A program made the translations under genes and the position numbers. From an uncultured Flavobacteriaceae bacterium (lineage in GTDB: Bacteria > Bacteroidota > Bacteroidia > Flavobacteriales > Flavobacteriaceae), in assembly GCA_943787295.1 (NCBI GenBank), contig CALSLW010000002.1:710189-774188 (forward strand): 64,000 nucleotides of DNA. The letters run 5' to 3'. The notes beneath the pieces are model-generated. The model was given only the letters and a program-made list of their open reading frames with translations, searched no databases and was not told the origin of the DNA. Positions 51,233 to 63,399 of this stretch are shown piece by piece (the stretch's first letter is position 1; every line of letters starts with the position of its first letter).

Positions 51233-51679
51233 TTACGCTAAAATCATCCCAATATGAGGGATGTCGTCTTCTAAATAACTTTCGCCGGTGGCCTTAAAAC
51301 CGTGCTCATTATAAAACTTTTCTAAATGAGCCTGCGCCGATATTTTGACGGCCTGGCCAGGAAAATTTTTTTTACATACAGCTATAGAAAAGTCAACTAA
51401 GGCATGGCCGTAGCTTTTTCCGCGAACAGATGGAGAAGTTACTACTCTACCGATTGAAGCGTAGTCTTTATAAGAGATGCCTTGCTCCAACAAGCGAGCG
51501 TAGGCGACCAATTGATTGTCTAAATAGCCTAAGACGTGAATACTTTTAGGGTCTTTACCGTCGACATCTTGATAAGGACAGTTTTGTTCTACCACAAATA
51601 CTTCGGCGCGAAGCGCCAAAACTTGATACAACTCTTGAGTTGTTAATTCTTGGAAGTTTTTGCTGCTAAAAGCAATCAT
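51233..51679 (-). CDS. ElaA-type GNAT acetyltransferase
   Basis: A 148-residue acetyltransferase with the ElaA pattern LTTQELYQVLALRAEVFVVEQNCPYQDVDGKDPKSIHVLGY, then IGRVVTSPSVRGKSYGHALVDFSI (acetyl-CoA loop RGKSYG) and the terminal FYNEHGFKATGESYLEDDIPHIGM. The EQNCPYQDVDGKD block is diagnostic of ElaA. The acceptor is unknown. The start codon overlaps the rpiB stop by one base, so it is cotranslated with rpiB. Confidence 0.88.
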   Translation of the reverse strand: MIAFSSKNFQELTTQELYQVLALRAEVFVVEQNCPYQDVDGKDPKSIHVLGYLDNQLVAYARLLEQGISYKDYASIGRVVTSPSVRGKSYGHALVDFSIAVCKKNFPGQAVKISAQAHLEKFYNEHGFKATGESYLEDDIPHIGMILA

Positions 51680-52110
51680 TAGCTACAAAGCATTTTATCA
51701 ATACGGCCTTGATGACGACCTCCTTCAAAGTCTGTACTTATATAAGTTTCTACCATTGCTAAAGCTTGTGGGATTGAAATAAAGCGAGCAGGTAAACTTA
51801 AAATATTAGCATTATTGTGTTCTCTCGCTAACGCAACAATTTCTTTTGTCCAACACAAAGCAGCGCGAACTTTTTGGTGTTTGTTTGCTGTCATAGCAGC
51901 TCCATTTCCACTGCCACAAATAATGATCCCTAGATCAACCTTTTGTTCTGAAACATCTTCTGCAACTGGATGGATAAAGTCTGGATAATCCACACTATCT
52001 GGTGCATCTGTTCCGTGATTTAAAACGTTGTGCCCTTTAGATTGAAGAAAATCTATGATAGCGTTTTTATAATCTACTCCTGCGTGGTCGTTTCCGATAG
52101 AAAATGTCAT
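51679..52110 (-). CDS. rpiB: Ribose 5-phosphate isomerase B
   Basis: Interconverts ribose 5-phosphate and ribulose 5-phosphate. MTFSIGNDHAGVDYKNAIIDFLQSKGHNV opens the RpiB/LacAB fold, and the catalytic Cys lies in LGIIICGSGNGAAMTANKH. Conserved phosphate-binding His/Arg occur in DHAG and GGRHQGRIDKM. At 143 residues the length is typical. An in-frame extension of 49 codons upstream exists but is not family-like, and I start at MTFSIG. It borders the 500-base non-coding region described separately. Confidence 0.93.
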   Translation of the reverse strand: MTFSIGNDHAGVDYKNAIIDFLQSKGHNVLNHGTDAPDSVDYPDFIHPVAEDVSEQKVDLGIIICGSGNGAAMTANKHQKVRAALCWTKEIVALAREHNNANILSLPARFISIPQALAMVETYISTDFEGGRHQGRIDKMLCS

Positions 52111-52139
52111 TTGCTGTGTTTTTAACAAAGGTAAGCATT

Positions 52140-52612
52140 GCCAATAAGTATGTGAATAAGTGCCCAAATGAATTGAAGAAAATGTTAATAAGTTCTCATA
52201 AGGTTGAGGGCTTAATTGATCGCTGTTTTTGCTTGTAAAAATTACCGGATAAAACAAAAGAAGTTGTTGTTATCCATTCACTTTTTATTGACGAAAAGGG
52301 TCTAGTTTGTTAACGGCTAAATATAAATTAGAAGCGTGAACTTATGCGCAATTGAAATTGTGAACAAGGGTTAATAAATAGATTAACTCTCATCCATAGA
52401 ACGGTTTAAACTATTGATAACTCAAAATAAAAAGTTTAAAAATATATTTATTTATCTTAACCAAAGCTTCTCTTTAAAAGTAATACCGCTATTAACAAGC
52501 AATAATAAGCATCATGATTTTATTTAATTTTAAAAAATAATAATTAATTATAATATAGTTGTGAATAAAAGCGGTCTTGTTGTTATTTTAAAGAAGTAGC
52601 TTTGTAAAAGAG
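52140..52612. other. Candidate chromosomal replication origin (DnaA-box cluster, AT-rich)
   Basis: The only gene-free stretch over 300 bases in the window. On the minus strand TTATTCACA occurs at 52151-52159 and 52560-52568 (both 9/9 matches to TTATnCACA). TTGTTCACA at 52359-52367 (minus) and TTATGCGCA at 52342-52350 (plus) match 8/9, TTATCCATT at 52270-52278 matches 7/9. Between them lie strongly AT-rich blocks (about 52420-52455 and 52515-52560) that could unwind. The parS sites at 60.6 and 62.5 kb lend support. Against it: no dnaA here and the genes to the left mostly point toward this site. It may instead be only the divergent rpiB/rnr control region. Confidence 0.45.
52577..52604 (+). 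promoter_or_regulatory. Promoter of rnr (TTG, 17 bases, TAGCTTTG)
   Basis: A TTG at 52577-52579 is followed after 17 bases by TAGCTTTG at 52597-52604, the Bacteroidota -33/-7 arrangement. The ATG of rnr lies nine bases beyond the -7 element, so the leader is only a few bases. Confidence 0.6.
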
Positions 52613-54789
52613 ATGGGAAAAGCAAAAAACAAGTACCGCCACATTGAAAAAAAGATGCTTTCTTTCTTTCGAGAAAATCCAGGCAAAGAATATAACTACA
52701 AGCAAATAGCAGCAGTACTAAATCTGCGAGATACTAGAGGAAGAAATGAACTCATTAAATTCCTCAACCTCAATGTAGCCAGTAAGCAATTGTTGAGTCC
52801 TAGTAGAGGGAAGTATGCTTTAGCCGTCACAAAAAAGCAATATCATCAAGGAATTTTAGATGTCACCTCTTCTGGAAGAGGCTTTGTGATTTGTGAAGAA
52901 TTAGAACAGGATATTAGTATTCCAAAAAACGGAATTAATAAAGCGTTTAATGGAGATCTAGTAGAAGTCTATTGTTATAAACGTAAAAAGAATGGAAGTC
53001 TAGAAGGCGAGATAGTCAATATCATCGAACGAAAGAAAACCACCTTTGTTGGGACTTTACAAATTGATAAAAATTATGCCTTTGTTTTAACGAGAGGGGC
53101 GAGAATGTATACCGACTTTTTTATTGATAAAAAGCAAATCACCCCAGACTATAATGATGGGGATAAAGTTTTGGTTCGTTTTGATGAATGGCCAAAACGC
53201 GCCGAATCTCCTTTTGGAACATTAATTGAAAACTTTGGTCCTCCTGGCGAAACAGCGACAGAAATGCACGCCATTTTATCGGATTATGGATTGCCCTTGC
53301 GCTTCCCTGAAGAAGTAGAAGCCGCTGCTGCAGAGATAGATCAACGTATCACAGCGGAAGAAATTAAAAAAAGAAGGGACTTTAGAGATGTACTTACTTT
53401 TACGATAGATCCTAAAACAGCCAAAGATTTTGACGATGCTTTATCGTTTGAAGTTTTAGGAGAAGATTTATATGAAGTTGGAATTCATATTGCCGATGTT
53501 TCCCATTACGTCCAGCCCGGGAGTATCCTTGATCAAGAGGCATTGGACAGAGCAACCTCTGTTTATTTAGTGGATCGAGTTGTCCCCATGTTACCGGAAG
53601 TTTTATCTAATGGGGTTTGTTCTTTACGCCCCCATGAAGAAAAATACACCTTTCTCTGCTGTTTTCCAAATCAATGGTAAAGGTGAGATAAAGAAGGAGT
53701 GGTTTGGGAGAACAGTAATTTATTCTGATCATCGATTTGCTTACGAAGAGGCACAGGACATGATTGAGTCCCAAACACCTATCGTTTCAGAAAAGCACTC
53801 TTTACGCAATGGATCTTATACCGTTGATGATGCCACTTTTACTGCTGTTATTACCTTAGATAAAATCGCTAGAAATTTGAGAAAAGATCGCATGAAAAGT
53901 GGAGCACTTTCTTTCGATCGTGTCGAAGTTAATTTCAATTTAAAAGAAGATAATACTCCAGAAAGTGTTTTTTTTAAAACCTTCAAAAGATGCTAATAAG
54001 TTAATTGAAGAATTTATGCTTTTAGCGAATAAGCAAGTGGCTCGCTTTGCTGGAAAAAGAGATAAACCCCTACCGATGGTTTATAGAATTCACGACGAGC
54101 CAGATCCTGAAAAGCTCAATAACTTACAAACGGTTGTAGCTGGTTTTGGTTATCAATTGAATTTAAAAACCAAAAACGTTAGTCAGTCGATTAATAAGCT
54201 TCTTTTGGATACCCAAGGGAAACAAGAGCAAAATATGATCGATACCTTAACCATACGATGTATGAGTAAGGCAGAATATACGACACAAAATATTGGTCAT
54301 TACGGATTAGCTTTTGACTATTATGCACATTTTACCTCTCCTATTCGTCGTTATCCAGATGTTATGGTGCATCGCTTATTAGCACAGCATCTAAACAAAG
54401 AAAAATGGCCCTCAATTGACCAACTTGAAGAAGCGAGTACACATTCTTCTCAGCGAGAACAATTAGCTACAAAAGCAGAACGTGATTCCATTAAGTTTAT
54501 GCAAATTAAATTTATGGAAAACCATATTGGCGAAGAATTTGCAGGAGTAATATCTGGGGTAACTGATCGCGGGATTTATGTAGAAATTATTGAAAATAAA
54601 TGTGAAGGTATGGTGCGGATCAAAGATGTTCCTGGTGATTATTTTTTCTTCGATGATAGAAATCATGCCCTTGTAGGAGAAAGAACAAAAAAGATTTACC
54701 AACTAGGAGACACTGTAACTGTAACTGTTGCAAAAGCAGATTTGATAAAACGACATTTAGATTTTACCATGGTTCAAGAAGACCAATAA
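52613..54789 (+). pseudogene. rnr: Ribonuclease R (two frameshifts in this sequence)
   Basis: 3'-5' exoribonuclease for structured RNA. N-terminal HTH/cold-shock region (residues 1-230: YNYKQIAAVLNLRDTRGRNELIKFLN, GRGFVICEELEQDISIPKNGINKAFNGD), RNB catalytic domain (TFTIDPKTAKDFDDALSFE, IHIADVSHYVQPGS; IRRYPDVMVHRLL later) and C-terminal S1 (ISGVTDRGIYVEIIENKCEGMVRI). One extra base near 53656 turns YTFSAVFQING into YTFLCCFPNQW and a stop. A second, in a T8-A4 run near 53985, breaks SVFFK-SKDANKLIEEFMLLANKQVARF. Corrected length is about 725 residues. Both shifts look like indel errors. Confidence 0.87.
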
Positions 54790-55529: not shown

Positions 55530-55600
55530 AGGCACCGAGCGGATTCGAACCGCTGTACAAGCTTTTGCAGAGCTCTGCCTAGCCACTCGGCCACGGTGCC
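55530..55600 (-). tRNA. tRNA-Cys (anticodon GCA)
   Basis: Read on the minus strand, a 7-bp acceptor stem (GGCACCG/CGGTGCC), D-arm GCCG...GGC, anticodon stem GAGCT/AGCTT with loop CTGCAAA (anticodon GCA), a short variable region and T-arm AGCGG-TTCGAAT-CCGCT are all visible. The discriminator is U. No CCA is encoded. The anticodon identifies it as cysteine. It stands alone, between the GIN gene and folB. Confidence 0.95.
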
Positions 55601-60229: not shown

Positions 60230-60237
60230 TATATTTG
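60230..60237 (+). promoter_or_regulatory. -7 element (TATATTTG) upstream of ybeY
   Basis: Exact TAnnTTTG match nine bases before the ybeY ATG. It rules against the TTG that overlaps it as a start. A TTTG five bases upstream does not fit the -33 spacing. Confidence 0.45.
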
Positions 60238-60246
60238 CATCAGCTT

Positions 60247-60675
60247 ATGATTTATTTTAACGACATACCAAAGCTCTCCTTAATCCAATCTGATTTAATT
60301 AGTTGGCTTAATCGTCTTGCGATTGAATTTAATGTTTCAATTGACCAACTCCAATACAATTTTGTAGACGAGAACAGTCTCTTAAAAATGAATCAAGAAT
60401 TTTTGAAACATGACACCCATACTGATATCATTACTTTTTCATACAGAGATGCTGCTGCTATTGAGGCCGAGATCTATATTTCTATTGACCGCATGCTTGA
60501 AAACGCCAAATTAAATCATGAAACAGTTGAAAATGAACTTCTTAGGCTTCTATCACATGGTTTTCTACACTGTATTGGCCACAATGACCACACAGAAGAG
60601 GAAAAATCAGCTATGAGAACCCAAGAAAATCGTTGTATAGAGATGTTCCACGTGAAACAAATGAAGAATGTTTGA
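60247..60675 (+). CDS. ybeY: Endoribonuclease YbeY (rRNA maturation RNase)
   Basis: Zinc-dependent RNase for 16S rRNA 3' end processing. The metal site HGFLHCIGHNDHTEEE (H-x3-H-x5-H) is present, preceded by DTHTDIITFSYRDAAAIEAEIYISIDRM. At 142 residues the length is normal. The C-terminal FHVKQMKNV is encoded by an exact parS site. It starts after a promoter element and its stop overlaps the mnmG start by eight bases. Confidence 0.93.
   Translation: MIYFNDIPKLSLIQSDLISWLNRLAIEFNVSIDQLQYNFVDENSLLKMNQEFLKHDTHTDIITFSYRDAAAIEAEIYISIDRMLENAKLNHETVENELLRLLSHGFLHCIGHNDHTEEEKSAMRTQENRCIEMFHVKQMKNV
60644..60659. promoter_or_regulatory. parS site, exact consensus match (ParB binding)
   Basis: TGTTCCACGTGAAACA equals the ParB-binding consensus TGTTnCACGTGAAACA at every fixed position. 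It lies inside the last codons of ybeY, eight bases before mnmG. parS sites cluster near the chromosomal origin, so this is a marker for it. Confidence 0.9.
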
Positions 60676-62539
60676 TAATGTATATGATGTTGTTGTTGTA
60701 GGAGGTGGTCATGCTGGTGCTGAAGCTGCAGCTGCAGCTGCCAATATGGGAAGTAAAACTTTATTGGTTACCATGAACCTGCAGAATATTGCACAGATGT
60801 CTTGTAACCCTGCTATGGGCGGAATTGCAAAAGGACAAATTATTTGTGAAATTGATGCCATGGGTGGCTATAGTGGAATTGTTTCAGATAAATCAGCGAT
60901 TCAATTCAAGATGTTGAACCGCTCTAAAGGCCCAGCCATGTGGAGCCCTAGAGTACAATCCGATCGTATGATGTTTGCGCAAACCTGGCGTGATATGCTA
61001 GAGCAAACTCCTCTTTTAGACTTCTATCAAGAGATGGTCACCGACCTTATTTTTGATAAAGATGTTATCGCGGGGGTAGTGACGAGTACTGGGATTAACA
61101 TTCATGCTAAAACAGTTGTCTTAACCAACGGCACTTTCTTGAACGGATTAATTCATATCGGAGAAAAGAATTTTGGAGGGGGTCGCGCAGGAGAAAGCGC
61201 TGCAACGGGCCTAACCGCAACTTTGCAAAACCGTGGTTTTGAATCTGGAAGAATGAAGACAGGGACTCCGCCTAGAGTAGACGGAAGATCTTTAGATTTC
61301 TCTAAAATGGAAGAACAACCTGGGGATGAAAAACCAGATAAGTTTTCCTATTCAAACTTAACAAAACCATTAACCAATCAACGTTCTTGTCATATCACCT
61401 ATACCTCTGACGAAGTTCATGACGCTTTGAGAACGGGATTCGATCGTTCCCCTATGTTTAATGGCGCGATCAAAAGTACGGGGCCGCGTTATTGTCCCTC
61501 TATCGAGGACAAGATTAACCGCTTCGCGGATAAAAATCGACACCAAATATTTGTAGAACCAGAAGGATGGAACACCATTGAATATTATATTAATGGTTTT
61601 TCTACTTCACTTCCACAAGACGTACAGTTTGAAGCGTTAAAAAAAGTAAAAGGCTTCGAACAGGTTAAGTTCTTTCGTGCGGGTTACGCTATTGAATACG
61701 ATTACTTTCCTCCCACTCAGTTGACCCACAGTTTAGAAACAAAGTTAGTTAAAGGCTTGTTCTTTGCAGGTCAAATCAACGGAACTACTGGTTATGAAGA
61801 AGCCGCTGCCCAAGGAATGATGGCAGGGATCAACGCTCACCTTTATCATAAAGGAGAAGACCGTTTTATTTTACAGCGGAACGAAGCTTATATAGGCGTT
61901 TTGATTGATGACTTAATCACCAAAGGAACAGAAGAGCCCTATCGTATGTTTACCAGCCGTGCAGAATACCGAACCCTCTTAAGACAAGACAATGCAGACT
62001 TTAGATTAACTGAAAAAGCATATCATTTAGGCTTAGCCAAAGAAGATCGTCTGCAAGCGGTACATCAAAAAGAAGAGCAGACGCGTACACTAAAAGCGTA
62101 TTATGAAAAGACCAGCATTAGCCCAGAAGAAGCCAATGGCTTTTTAGAGGCCAAAAACTCTTCCCTGATTAAGCAATCAGATAAGATGGCGAAGATTTAT
62201 TCTCGTCCAAATATTACCAGTGCAGAAATGACTTCTGTCCCTAAGGTTGCTGCATACATTGAAGAGAATGACTTTTCAAAAGCTGTGCAAGAGCAAGTTG
62301 AAATACAAATCAAATATGCAGGTTATATCGAGAAGGAAAAGCTAAATGCTGACAAACTTAACCGACTAGAAGCGGTCAAGATCCCGGCTGACTTTGACTA
62401 TCATTGCTTAGCCTCCTTGTCACACGAAGCCAAGGAAAAGCTGAGTAATATACAGCCACAAACAATCTCTCAAGCATCGCGGATTAGCGGGATTAACCCG
62501 AGTGATATATCCGTTCTGTTGGTAAAACTTGGCCGATAA
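60668..62539 (+). CDS. mnmG: tRNA uridine-5-carboxymethylaminomethyl modification enzyme MnmG (GidA)
   Basis: FAD-dependent enzyme that, with MnmE, modifies the wobble uridine of several tRNAs. The FAD motif YDVVVVGGGHAGAEAAAAAANMG opens it. The conserved blocks are MSCNPAMGGIAKGQIICEIDAMGG, GRMKTGTPPRVDGRSLDF, FFAGQINGTTGYEEAAAQGMMAGINAHL and FTSRAEYRTLLRQDNADFRLT. At 623 residues it is full-length. It is flanked by two parS sequences, and in many bacteria gidA is next to the origin and parAB. mnmE and parAB are not in the window. Confidence 0.97.
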   Translation: MFDNVYDVVVVGGGHAGAEAAAAAANMGSKTLLVTMNLQNIAQMSCNPAMGGIAKGQIICEIDAMGGYSGIVSDKSAIQFKMLNRSKGPAMWSPRVQSDRMMFAQTWRDMLEQTPLLDFYQEMVTDLIFDKDVIAGVVTSTGINIHAKTVVLTNGTFLNGLIHIGEKNFGGGRAGESAATGLTATLQNRGFESGRMKTGTPPRVDGRSLDFSKMEEQPGDEKPDKFSYSNLTKPLTNQRSCHITYTSDEVHDALRTGFDRSPMFNGAIKSTGPRYCPSIEDKINRFADKNRHQIFVEPEGWNTIEYYINGFSTSLPQDVQFEALKKVKGFEQVKFFRAGYAIEYDYFPPTQLTHSLETKLVKGLFFAGQINGTTGYEEAAAQGMMAGINAHLYHKGEDRFILQRNEAYIGVLIDDLITKGTEEPYRMFTSRAEYRTLLRQDNADFRLTEKAYHLGLAKEDRLQAVHQKEEQTRTLKAYYEKTSISPEEANGFLEAKNSSLIKQSDKMAKIYSRPNITSAEMTSVPKVAAYIEENDFSKAVQEQVEIQIKYAGYIEKEKLNADKLNRLEAVKIPADFDYHCLASLSHEAKEKLSNIQPQTISQASRISGINPSDISVLLVKLGR

Positions 62540-63399
62540 TGTTTCACGTGGAACCAAAACACTCCTTTACCCTTATAGCAAAAACCAAAGATTATTTGGT
62601 TACAGGAAGCTCTTTCGAAGTGCGACTGGATCAGCAAACACAAATTGCCCACACCTACCCCCAACCAAGCGAGGACGAACTAGGGAAGTATTACGCATCA
62701 GAAGAATACATTTCTCACGGGAATAAAAAACGCTCTGTCATAGAACGCGTTTATGCTATAGCACAAAAGATTATGCTAAAGCAAAAGGAACAATGGCTTA
62801 CAAAACACAGCAAACAAAACAAACGCTATTTAGATTTTGGCTGTGGAACAGCCGCGCTTGTGCAACACCTTATTCAAAAAAACTGGGAAGCCTATGGTGT
62901 CGAGCCAAGCGAAAAAGCGCGCAATTTTTCGATAGTAAAAGAACGGCTCTACCCTAGTCTAGAAGAACTTCCTCAAAAAGATTTTGATGTTATTGCGCTA
63001 TGGCACGTTTTGGAACATCTATCAGACCCTGCTAAATCTCTCAAGGCATTTTATGATCGCTTAGATCATCAAGGCCATTTGTTTTTAGCCTTGCCTAACT
63101 TTAATTCTTATGACGCGAAGTATTATGAAAATTTTTGGGCTGCTTATGATGTGCCCAGACATCTCTGGCATTTTTCAACCAAAGGAATAATTGGATTGTG
63201 TGAAGAAAACGGCTTTGAGTTTGTCGAAAGTAAAGGCTTAGGGTTTGATGCATTTTACGTTAGCTATTTATCAGAACGGCACCAAAAAAACAAAGTTGCG
63301 TTTATCAAAGGAATGATAGTGGGTTGTTGGTCAAATCTTTTGGCCTTGTTTACCCAGGAGTATTCTTCAAAACTTTATGTCTTTAAAAAGAACACTTAA
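62539..63399 (+). CDS. Class I SAM-dependent methyltransferase
   Basis: A 286-residue methyltransferase. The N-terminal zinc-like segment is absent, and residues 1-85 contain a segment (EDELGKYYASEEYISH) seen in UbiG/Coq3-like fused proteins. The SAM-binding motif RYLDFGCGTAALVQHLIQKNWEAYGVEPSEKA lies near 98-130. The motif VIALWHVLEHLSDPAKSLKAF is the classic post-II block, followed by a C-terminal helical region. The substrate is unknown. The ATG overlaps the second parS site and the stop of mnmG by one base, giving FHVEP after the start Met. Confidence 0.88.
   Translation: MFHVEPKHSFTLIAKTKDYLVTGSSFEVRLDQQTQIAHTYPQPSEDELGKYYASEEYISHGNKKRSVIERVYAIAQKIMLKQKEQWLTKHSKQNKRYLDFGCGTAALVQHLIQKNWEAYGVEPSEKARNFSIVKERLYPSLEELPQKDFDVIALWHVLEHLSDPAKSLKAFYDRLDHQGHLFLALPNFNSYDAKYYENFWAAYDVPRHLWHFSTKGIIGLCEENGFEFVESKGLGFDAFYVSYLSERHQKNKVAFIKGMIVGCWSNLLALFTQEYSSKLYVFKKNT
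62540..62555. promoter_or_regulatory. parS-like site, one mismatch (ParB binding)
   Basis: TGTTTCACGTGGAACC differs from the palindromic consensus TGTTTCACGTGnAACA only in the last base. It begins on the last base of the mnmG stop codon and covers codons 1-6 of the methyltransferase. It is 1.9 kb from the exact site and in reverse orientation to it. Confidence 0.75.

Follow-up and report, generated by a model that had tools for sequence, protein, structure and literature searches.

In an uncultured flavobacterium, the gene mnmG (gidA) carries at each of its ends a 16-bp sequence resembling the ParB binding site parS, which raises the question of whether these two sequences form the centromere of the chromosome and where the replication origin (oriC) lies with respect to them. 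The window that we analyzed is the whole stretch of 64,000 nucleotides at C2:710189-774188 of the organism's own draft genome, G000 (2,202,245 bases in 4 contigs). Our analysis indicates that both 16-mers are very probably (roughly 93%) the chromosomal parS centromere of this flavobacterium, and ParB is predicted to bind them. The observations on which this reading is based are the sequence of the sites, their rarity, their conservation, the presence of ParAB with parS-type residues, and their position by GC skew in relatives. The features in question are as follows.

60235-60675, plus strand: ybeY, encoding an rRNA maturation RNase, with a TTG start as listed (NCBIfam TIGR00043 above cut-off).
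60644-60659, no strand assigned: predicted parS site 1, TGTTCCACGTGAAACA, within the last codons of ybeY and starting 24 bp ahead of the mnmG start codon.
60668-62539, plus strand: mnmG (gidA), bracketed by both predicted parS sites (NCBIfam TIGR00136 above cut-off).
62540-62555, no strand assigned: predicted parS site 2, TGTTTCACGTGGAACC, with one mismatch, within the first codons of the methyltransferase gene and directly 3' of the mnmG stop codon.
62539-63399, plus strand: putative S-adenosylmethionine-dependent methyltransferase (matches to UbiG-like and further methyltransferase models all stayed below cut-off).

The initial annotation, made from the letters of the window, had proposed an exact consensus site and a one-mismatch site at the two mnmG junctions. 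When mismatches were counted against the 16-bp pattern TGTTNCACGTGNAACA, both sites were found there, site 1 with no mismatch and site 2 with a single one, in its last base. They were the sole matches in the window at ≤1 mismatch, and none of 100 dinucleotide shuffles of the window yielded two such matches (mean 0.00, largest 0), which bears out the claim that such a pair is unlikely to arise by chance. Three further window matches appeared at ≤3 mismatches, giving five in total, a number within chance because 12 of the 100 shuffles reached it. A scan of the whole draft genome at one mismatch recovered one additional match, TGTTGCACCTGTAACA at C2:131940, in which the central CACGTG is broken, so that many equal matches scattered over the genome do not occur. 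Sites 1 and 2 are the only credible parS matches in the 2.20 Mb draft genome, and, as expected of chromosomal parS, they are few and clustered, spanning 1.9 kb together; because the assembly is 89% complete, a further site in the missing sequence is possible. Both sites had been described as coding (FHVKQ and FHVEP), and they indeed encode part of the YbeY C-terminus (...EMFHVKQMKNV, followed by the stop codon) and part of the N-terminus of the putative methyltransferase (MFHVEPK...), respectively. Because parS is a near-palindrome, the opposite orientation ascribed to them tells only in which half the asymmetric base stands.

Conservation of the sites was assessed in the best 80 of 589 mnmG relatives from named genome records, nearly all of which are titled Bacteroidota, with one Limnohabitans (L023). 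A site was scored when a sequence with ≤1 mismatch lay within 200 bp of mnmG, and 76 loci had at least 200 bp on both sides of the gene. An upstream site was present in 67 of these loci, a downstream site in 63, and both in 61. The 80 loci together contained 86 matches upstream, 66 downstream, 2 inside mnmG and 24 elsewhere, i.e., 152 matches in the 32,692 positions of the 200-bp flanks and 26 in the remaining 699,850 positions, while a reversed-pattern control returned 0 matches. One or both sites were missing from 15 of the 76 loci, several of which have sites with 2 mismatches. The distance to mnmG varied from 21 to 168 bp upstream and from 2 to 123 bp downstream. We also determined whether the site nearest mnmG in each locus fell within a plus-strand open reading frame (ORF) of at least 80 codons. 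The results showed that 44 of 69 upstream sites were outside such ORFs and 25 inside (24 of them in one frame), and that 20 of 65 downstream sites were coding, spread over all three frames. As the upstream sites are mostly noncoding and the downstream sites occupy three frames, it is the DNA that is conserved and not the peptide. Upstream of mnmG in the locus L028, at distances of 78-1189 bp, we counted twelve parS-like sites with ≤2 mismatches; four of them are copies of a variant, TGTTCCACATGGAACA, placed at regular intervals of 116-118 bp, and this variant was also seen in L018 and L060. An extra parS-like site was observed inside the mnmG coding sequence (+1387) in G074 and G120, and a similar one in L083 and L086, all from some Flavobacteriales.

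Genome-wide scans were then compared at the level of the order, where of 148 genomes we scanned the 20 single-contig ones outside the family f16 and 7 of the 20 f16 genomes. All 27 exact matches in the 20 single-contig, ParB-bearing genomes were located ≤600 bp from mnmG, and their 25 one-mismatch matches were divided between positions in this same range or inside mnmG (16) and elsewhere (9). In 15 of these 20 genomes, mnmG had a site with ≤1 mismatch at either end, no more than 200 bp away. The genome G027 had no match at ≤1 mismatch, but the perfect palindrome AGTTTCACGTGAAACT occurs twice in it, at distances of 4 and 231 bp downstream of mnmG. The 7 f16 genomes (0.3-0.6 Mb), which are probably those of endosymbionts, judged from their small size, all contained mnmG, and no parS match, no ParB and no DnaA match was found in them. 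In fifteen named genomes, a set biased by having been picked after the locus results were seen, 24 of 24 exact matches were ≤1.2 kb from mnmG. A wider scan drew on 60 genomes and covered all 8 at class level and 20 of 45 at phylum level. In these 28 genomes, 34 of 40 exact matches lay within 2 kb of mnmG, and a site with ≤1 mismatch was present within 200 bp of the gene in 21 genomes and within 2 kb in 24. On these counts, the mnmG-adjacent site runs through the phylum; its two-sided form is the norm in the order and occurs sporadically outside it. A common degenerate third site, TGTTTTACGTGAAACA, was observed ~11-13 kb downstream of mnmG in two genomes (G135:C1:496791 and G095:C1:2876886).

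The parAB genes, which the initial annotation had noted as absent from the window, were located on another contig, where ParA and ParB genes adjoin at C1:732298-733966. ParB_N gave a match at C1:733192 with an E of 1e-33; a weaker one, at C1:1079039, falls within a longer protein. A ParA-like ORF with KGGVGKTT directly precedes the ParB gene, and among the ParA-type models shown for this ORF all were below cut-off. The ParB protein aligned to solved ParB/Spo0J chains (best E 6e-51), scored above the cut-off of TIGR00180 (ParB/RepB/Spo0J), and kept GERR, the cytidine triphosphate (CTP) motif, together with R173, N178, G201 and R204 (Caulobacter numbering), as assigned by ungapped spacing rather than by alignment to the Caulobacter sequence. 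The positions of these parS-type residues are those given in the accessible text of PMC7383237. The same four residues were found at equal spacing in 20 of 20 parsed ParB proteins (21 given, own genome included), and position 184, which is K in Noc proteins, was K or R across the parsed set. The predicted proteins of this genome include a ParA and also a ParB that has the CTP motif and the parS-type residues. The ParB of G027, read separately from the 20 parsed proteins, has S and A in place of G170 and G201. G027 (L166, L329) thus combines parS copies with both outer bases changed symmetrically, twice, and a ParB altered at these two positions, which represents a possible co-variation of site and protein.

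It had also been suggested that this end of the window is close to the origin. GC skew was taken from 20 segments of 20 kb in each genome; as uncorrected fourfold-site skew is confounded by gene strand, we used the residual left after correction for coding strand. A clear two-arm pattern was observed in three single-contig relatives, G153, G110 and G124, and none of 500 shuffles equalled it in any of the three. The negative-to-positive switch occurred at 1.42-1.575 Mb in G153, 1.25-1.435 Mb in G110 and 1.58-1.755 Mb in G124, and each interval includes mnmG (1.553, 1.376 and 1.587 Mb, respectively), while dnaA lies 1.4-1.7 Mb from the switch and mnmG, i.e., 34-45% of the chromosome away. With finer sampling, the corrected skew reached its minimum 23 kb before mnmG in G153 (1.530 Mb) and 27 kb before it in G110 (1.349 Mb), and the raw skew agreed with this minimum in G153. 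The parS sites are origin-proximal in these three relatives, as the initial annotation had supposed for the window; the skew of the own genome and the weak skew of G034 are compatible with such a position but too imprecise to establish it. On the own contig C2, skew was mixed to negative below ~655 kb (9 of 13 50-kb bins below 650 kb were negative), flat for ~120 kb to ~780 kb, and then positive, a course that is consistent with an origin near mnmG without fixing its position precisely. Across 20 single-contig genomes, whose lengths were rounded to 0.1 Mb except for four, mnmG was separated from dnaA by 21-50% of the chromosome (median 35%) and from parB by 17-46% in 19 of 20 (9% in G027), and 9 of these genomes have dnaA within their first kilobase.

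We infer ParB binding, spreading and segregation, as well as the identity of oriC, from these observations. In the proposed mechanism, both parS sites would be bound by ParB, whose gene adjoins that of ParA on another contig; ParB would close there as a CTP-dependent clamp and spread over mnmG and neighboring genes. ParA would then move the ParB-parS complexes apart, and the freshly replicated origin region would be the first to separate. In this reading the parS pair is located close to the replication origin, for which the rpiB/rnr gap discussed below would be the best candidate.

Several results weigh against a parS centromere at mnmG. Three of the 76 loci (L077, L082 and L084) had no site near mnmG at ≤2 mismatches, both-sided sites within 200 bp occurred in only 8 of the 28 wider genomes (these 8 from seven families), and four of the 28 (G164, G174, G192 and G194) had no site within 2 kb of the gene. 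The top NCBIfam model for the own ParB was that of nucleoid-occlusion (Noc) proteins, TIGR04285, below cut-off (238 vs 315 bits), and its position 184 is K, as in Noc. Concerning origin position, the raw skew of G110 had no minimum near mnmG, only its strand-corrected skew having one; the skew of G034 was weak, with 9 of 500 shuffles as good and the five best models placing the origin at 2.3-3.2 Mb; and the minimum of the own genome (searched over 600-871 kb) fell at 675 kb corrected or ~710 kb raw, with mnmG at 771 kb.

Three other explanations for the 16-mers were considered. The palindromes might serve the expression of ybeY, mnmG or the methyltransferase gene as an operator or RNA hairpin, their likeness to parS being a coincidence or ParB having been recruited as a local regulator, and the persistence of the sites beside mnmG in lineages with parAB and dnaA elsewhere would fit this idea. 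However, the full parS consensus is kept rather than a mere palindrome, the distance between site and gene varies as described above, L028 has a dozen copies upstream of mnmG, and the seven small genomes keep mnmG without ParB or a parS match, though reduced genomes erode much else; a role in expression is therefore unlikely in our estimation. Still less probable is that the sites are fossils, left over from an ancestral origin gene cluster and no longer in use. Both gidA (mnmG) and parAB are listed among the classical origin genes in the accessible text of PMC2099444, and the wide separation of parB and mnmG in most single-contig genomes (19 of 20) also speaks for this idea, but unused 16-mers are not expected to survive at the observed match rates, both copies in G027 show a concerted change of the outer base pair in the two halves, and all parsed ParB proteins kept the parS-type residues. 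Chance matches can be practically dismissed, given the shuffling results and the recurrence of the sites beside mnmG in relatives. A centromere at mnmG remains our preferred reading.

The initial annotation was silent on a candidate oriC that lies ~8 kb away in the same window, in the divergent gap between rpiB and rnr, with the following features.

51679-52257, minus strand: rpiB, left border of the candidate oriC gap.
52490-52515, plus strand: candidate oriC core, a conserved 26-bp motif, TATTAACANNCTATNATAANCANCAT, with 1 mismatch here.
52516-52559, no strand assigned: AT-rich tract between motif and box, a candidate unwinding element.
52560-52568, minus strand: DnaA-box-like site, TTATTCACA, with 1 mismatch to TTATCCACA and 70 bp from the motif start.
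52613-54789, plus strand: rnr, encoding RNase R, which closes the gap on its right side and reads as three overlapping ORFs.

The three overlapping ORFs of rnr point to frameshifts or assembly errors in the draft genome, and the gene has open frames of 663-760 aa in relatives. A tRNA gene was noted at window positions 55530-55600, minus strand, between the DUF2807 and folB genes. The rpiB/rnr gap is the best candidate for a replication origin near the parS pair, the features at 52490-52568 being located 8-10 kb from it. In the synteny block matching window ~51-56 kb, the skew minimum of G153 falls at the edge and that of G110 inside; TATTAACANNCTATNATAANCANCAT is 5.3 kb from the corrected minimum in both genomes, and the switch interval of G124 contains the motif. 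The gap is AT-rich, as would be expected of an origin, with a GC content of 22-25% in G000, G153 and G110, and no more than 100 kb separate rnr from mnmG in all but one of 20 single-contig genomes (median 19 kb).

The distribution of the motif was examined in the window's own family, f1, which we take to be Flavobacteriaceae from its named mnmG relatives. With ≤3 mismatches, the motif was found at the rpiB/rnr place in 20 of 21 f1 genomes (none in G054), a count that is not independent for the genomes used in fitting, since the motif was first seen in four genomes and loosened after the best matches in 31 rnr upstream regions had been inspected; G087, G134 and G143 were outside the fitting set. 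In these three genomes rnr was not placed, and the motif was 9-18 kb from mnmG on the same contig. In the 17 motif-bearing f1 genomes with rnr placed, it was always on the rnr strand, 123-2237 bp upstream; for G158, the match beside rnr was taken although another match scores equally. In G087 the motif and mnmG are on opposite strands, in contrast to the remaining f1 genomes in which one contig carries the two. The f1 genomes contained 30 matches in all, the 20 at the place and 10 elsewhere, each of the latter with 3 mismatches, and 13 genomes from other families yielded three stray 3-mismatch matches, none near rnr. The reversed pattern gave 11 matches in 34 genomes. Two other roles were considered for the motif and rejected: control of rnr, from which it is 2.2 kb distant in G017 and G139, and a known RNA, as Rfam matches over threshold in window 48-64 kb were to tRNA only. 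Folding of the motif stretch of the own genome gave a z of -2.8, with 3 of 200 shuffles as good.

A 9-mer with ≤1 mismatch to TTATCCACA or TTATCAACA was present at +69 to +72 in 20 of 20 motif loci, the alternative box TTATCAACA having been added after the sequences were seen; random 45-bp stretches of those loci matched equally in 40 of 400 cases, and with TTATCCACA alone the count was 6 of 20. No DnaA-box clusters above shuffles were detected in G153, G110 and G000 (TTATCCACA, ≤1 mismatch, 300 bp), the best clusters containing 2, 2 and 3 boxes, respectively, while 10 composition shuffles of each reached 2-4; the three clustered boxes of G000 lie inside the rpiB ORF. A classical oriC has more than one conserved box, and both the motif and the alternative box were fitted after the sequences had been inspected; the gap therefore stays a candidate. 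With confidence only a little better than even, we read the window as a complete flavobacterial origin region, in which an oriC within the rpiB/rnr gap, composed of the family-specific motif of 26 bp, the AT-rich tract and the DnaA-box-like site with constant spacing, would be accompanied, 8-10 kb off, by a two-site ParB centromere bracketing mnmG. Origin and centromere would be kept together in the family, with dnaA and parAB far away; a dedicated initiation factor may bind the motif, and the mnmG-adjacent centromere may be older than the family, extending through much of the phylum.

The distribution of parS in bacteria was reportedly surveyed by Livny et al. in 2007. The system described here shares with the chromosomal ParABS of Bacillus (Spo0J) and Caulobacter (ParB; consensus TGTTNCACGTGAAACA) a 16-bp site, a ParB with CTP motif and parS-type residues, and, in relatives, a position near the origin by skew. 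It differs in that parB is not beside parS, being removed from it by the distances given above, and in that only two sites exist, which bracket one gene and overlap coding ends. In mouse-gut bacteria, including Bacteroides caecimuris, parS clusters mark the origin together with GC skew, supported by read coverage; the origin is not systematically at dnaA, a Hi-C origin domain is seen in B. caecimuris, and the two Bacteroidetes have no known condensin homologue (PMC10197239, accessible text). That text, in contrast to our results, covers gut species only and makes no mention of mnmG. An origin at mnmG is already published for two Flavobacteriaceae, as Ori-Finder and GC skew placed it at or beside this gene in Mariniflexile litorale (PMC11278836), expressly not at dnaA, and in Algorimicrobium (PMC12843772); the excerpts available from these papers mention no parS, and in the present window the strongest oriC candidate lies not far from mnmG, in the rpiB/rnr gap. 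The legend of Figure 3 in PMC11278836, as excerpted, labels oriC and the terminus (ter) opposite to its text. Excerpts of other reports place the oriC of Elizabethkingia far from dnaA by coordinates (PMC8994065) and describe a Blattabacterium genome without dnaA, naming gidA and parA among genes normally near origins (PMC2768785).

No report of parS beside mnmG in Bacteroidota was found in a literature search of titles and abstract openings, and both the 26-bp motif and the arrangement of parS sites around mnmG are possibly new. Our results raise the questions of why the centromere stays beside mnmG alone and whether the 26-bp motif belongs to oriC. Altogether, parS beside mnmG would provide a simple mark of the origin neighborhood in these bacteria, where dnaA misplaces the origin, an error that affects replication-rate estimates and genome numbering.

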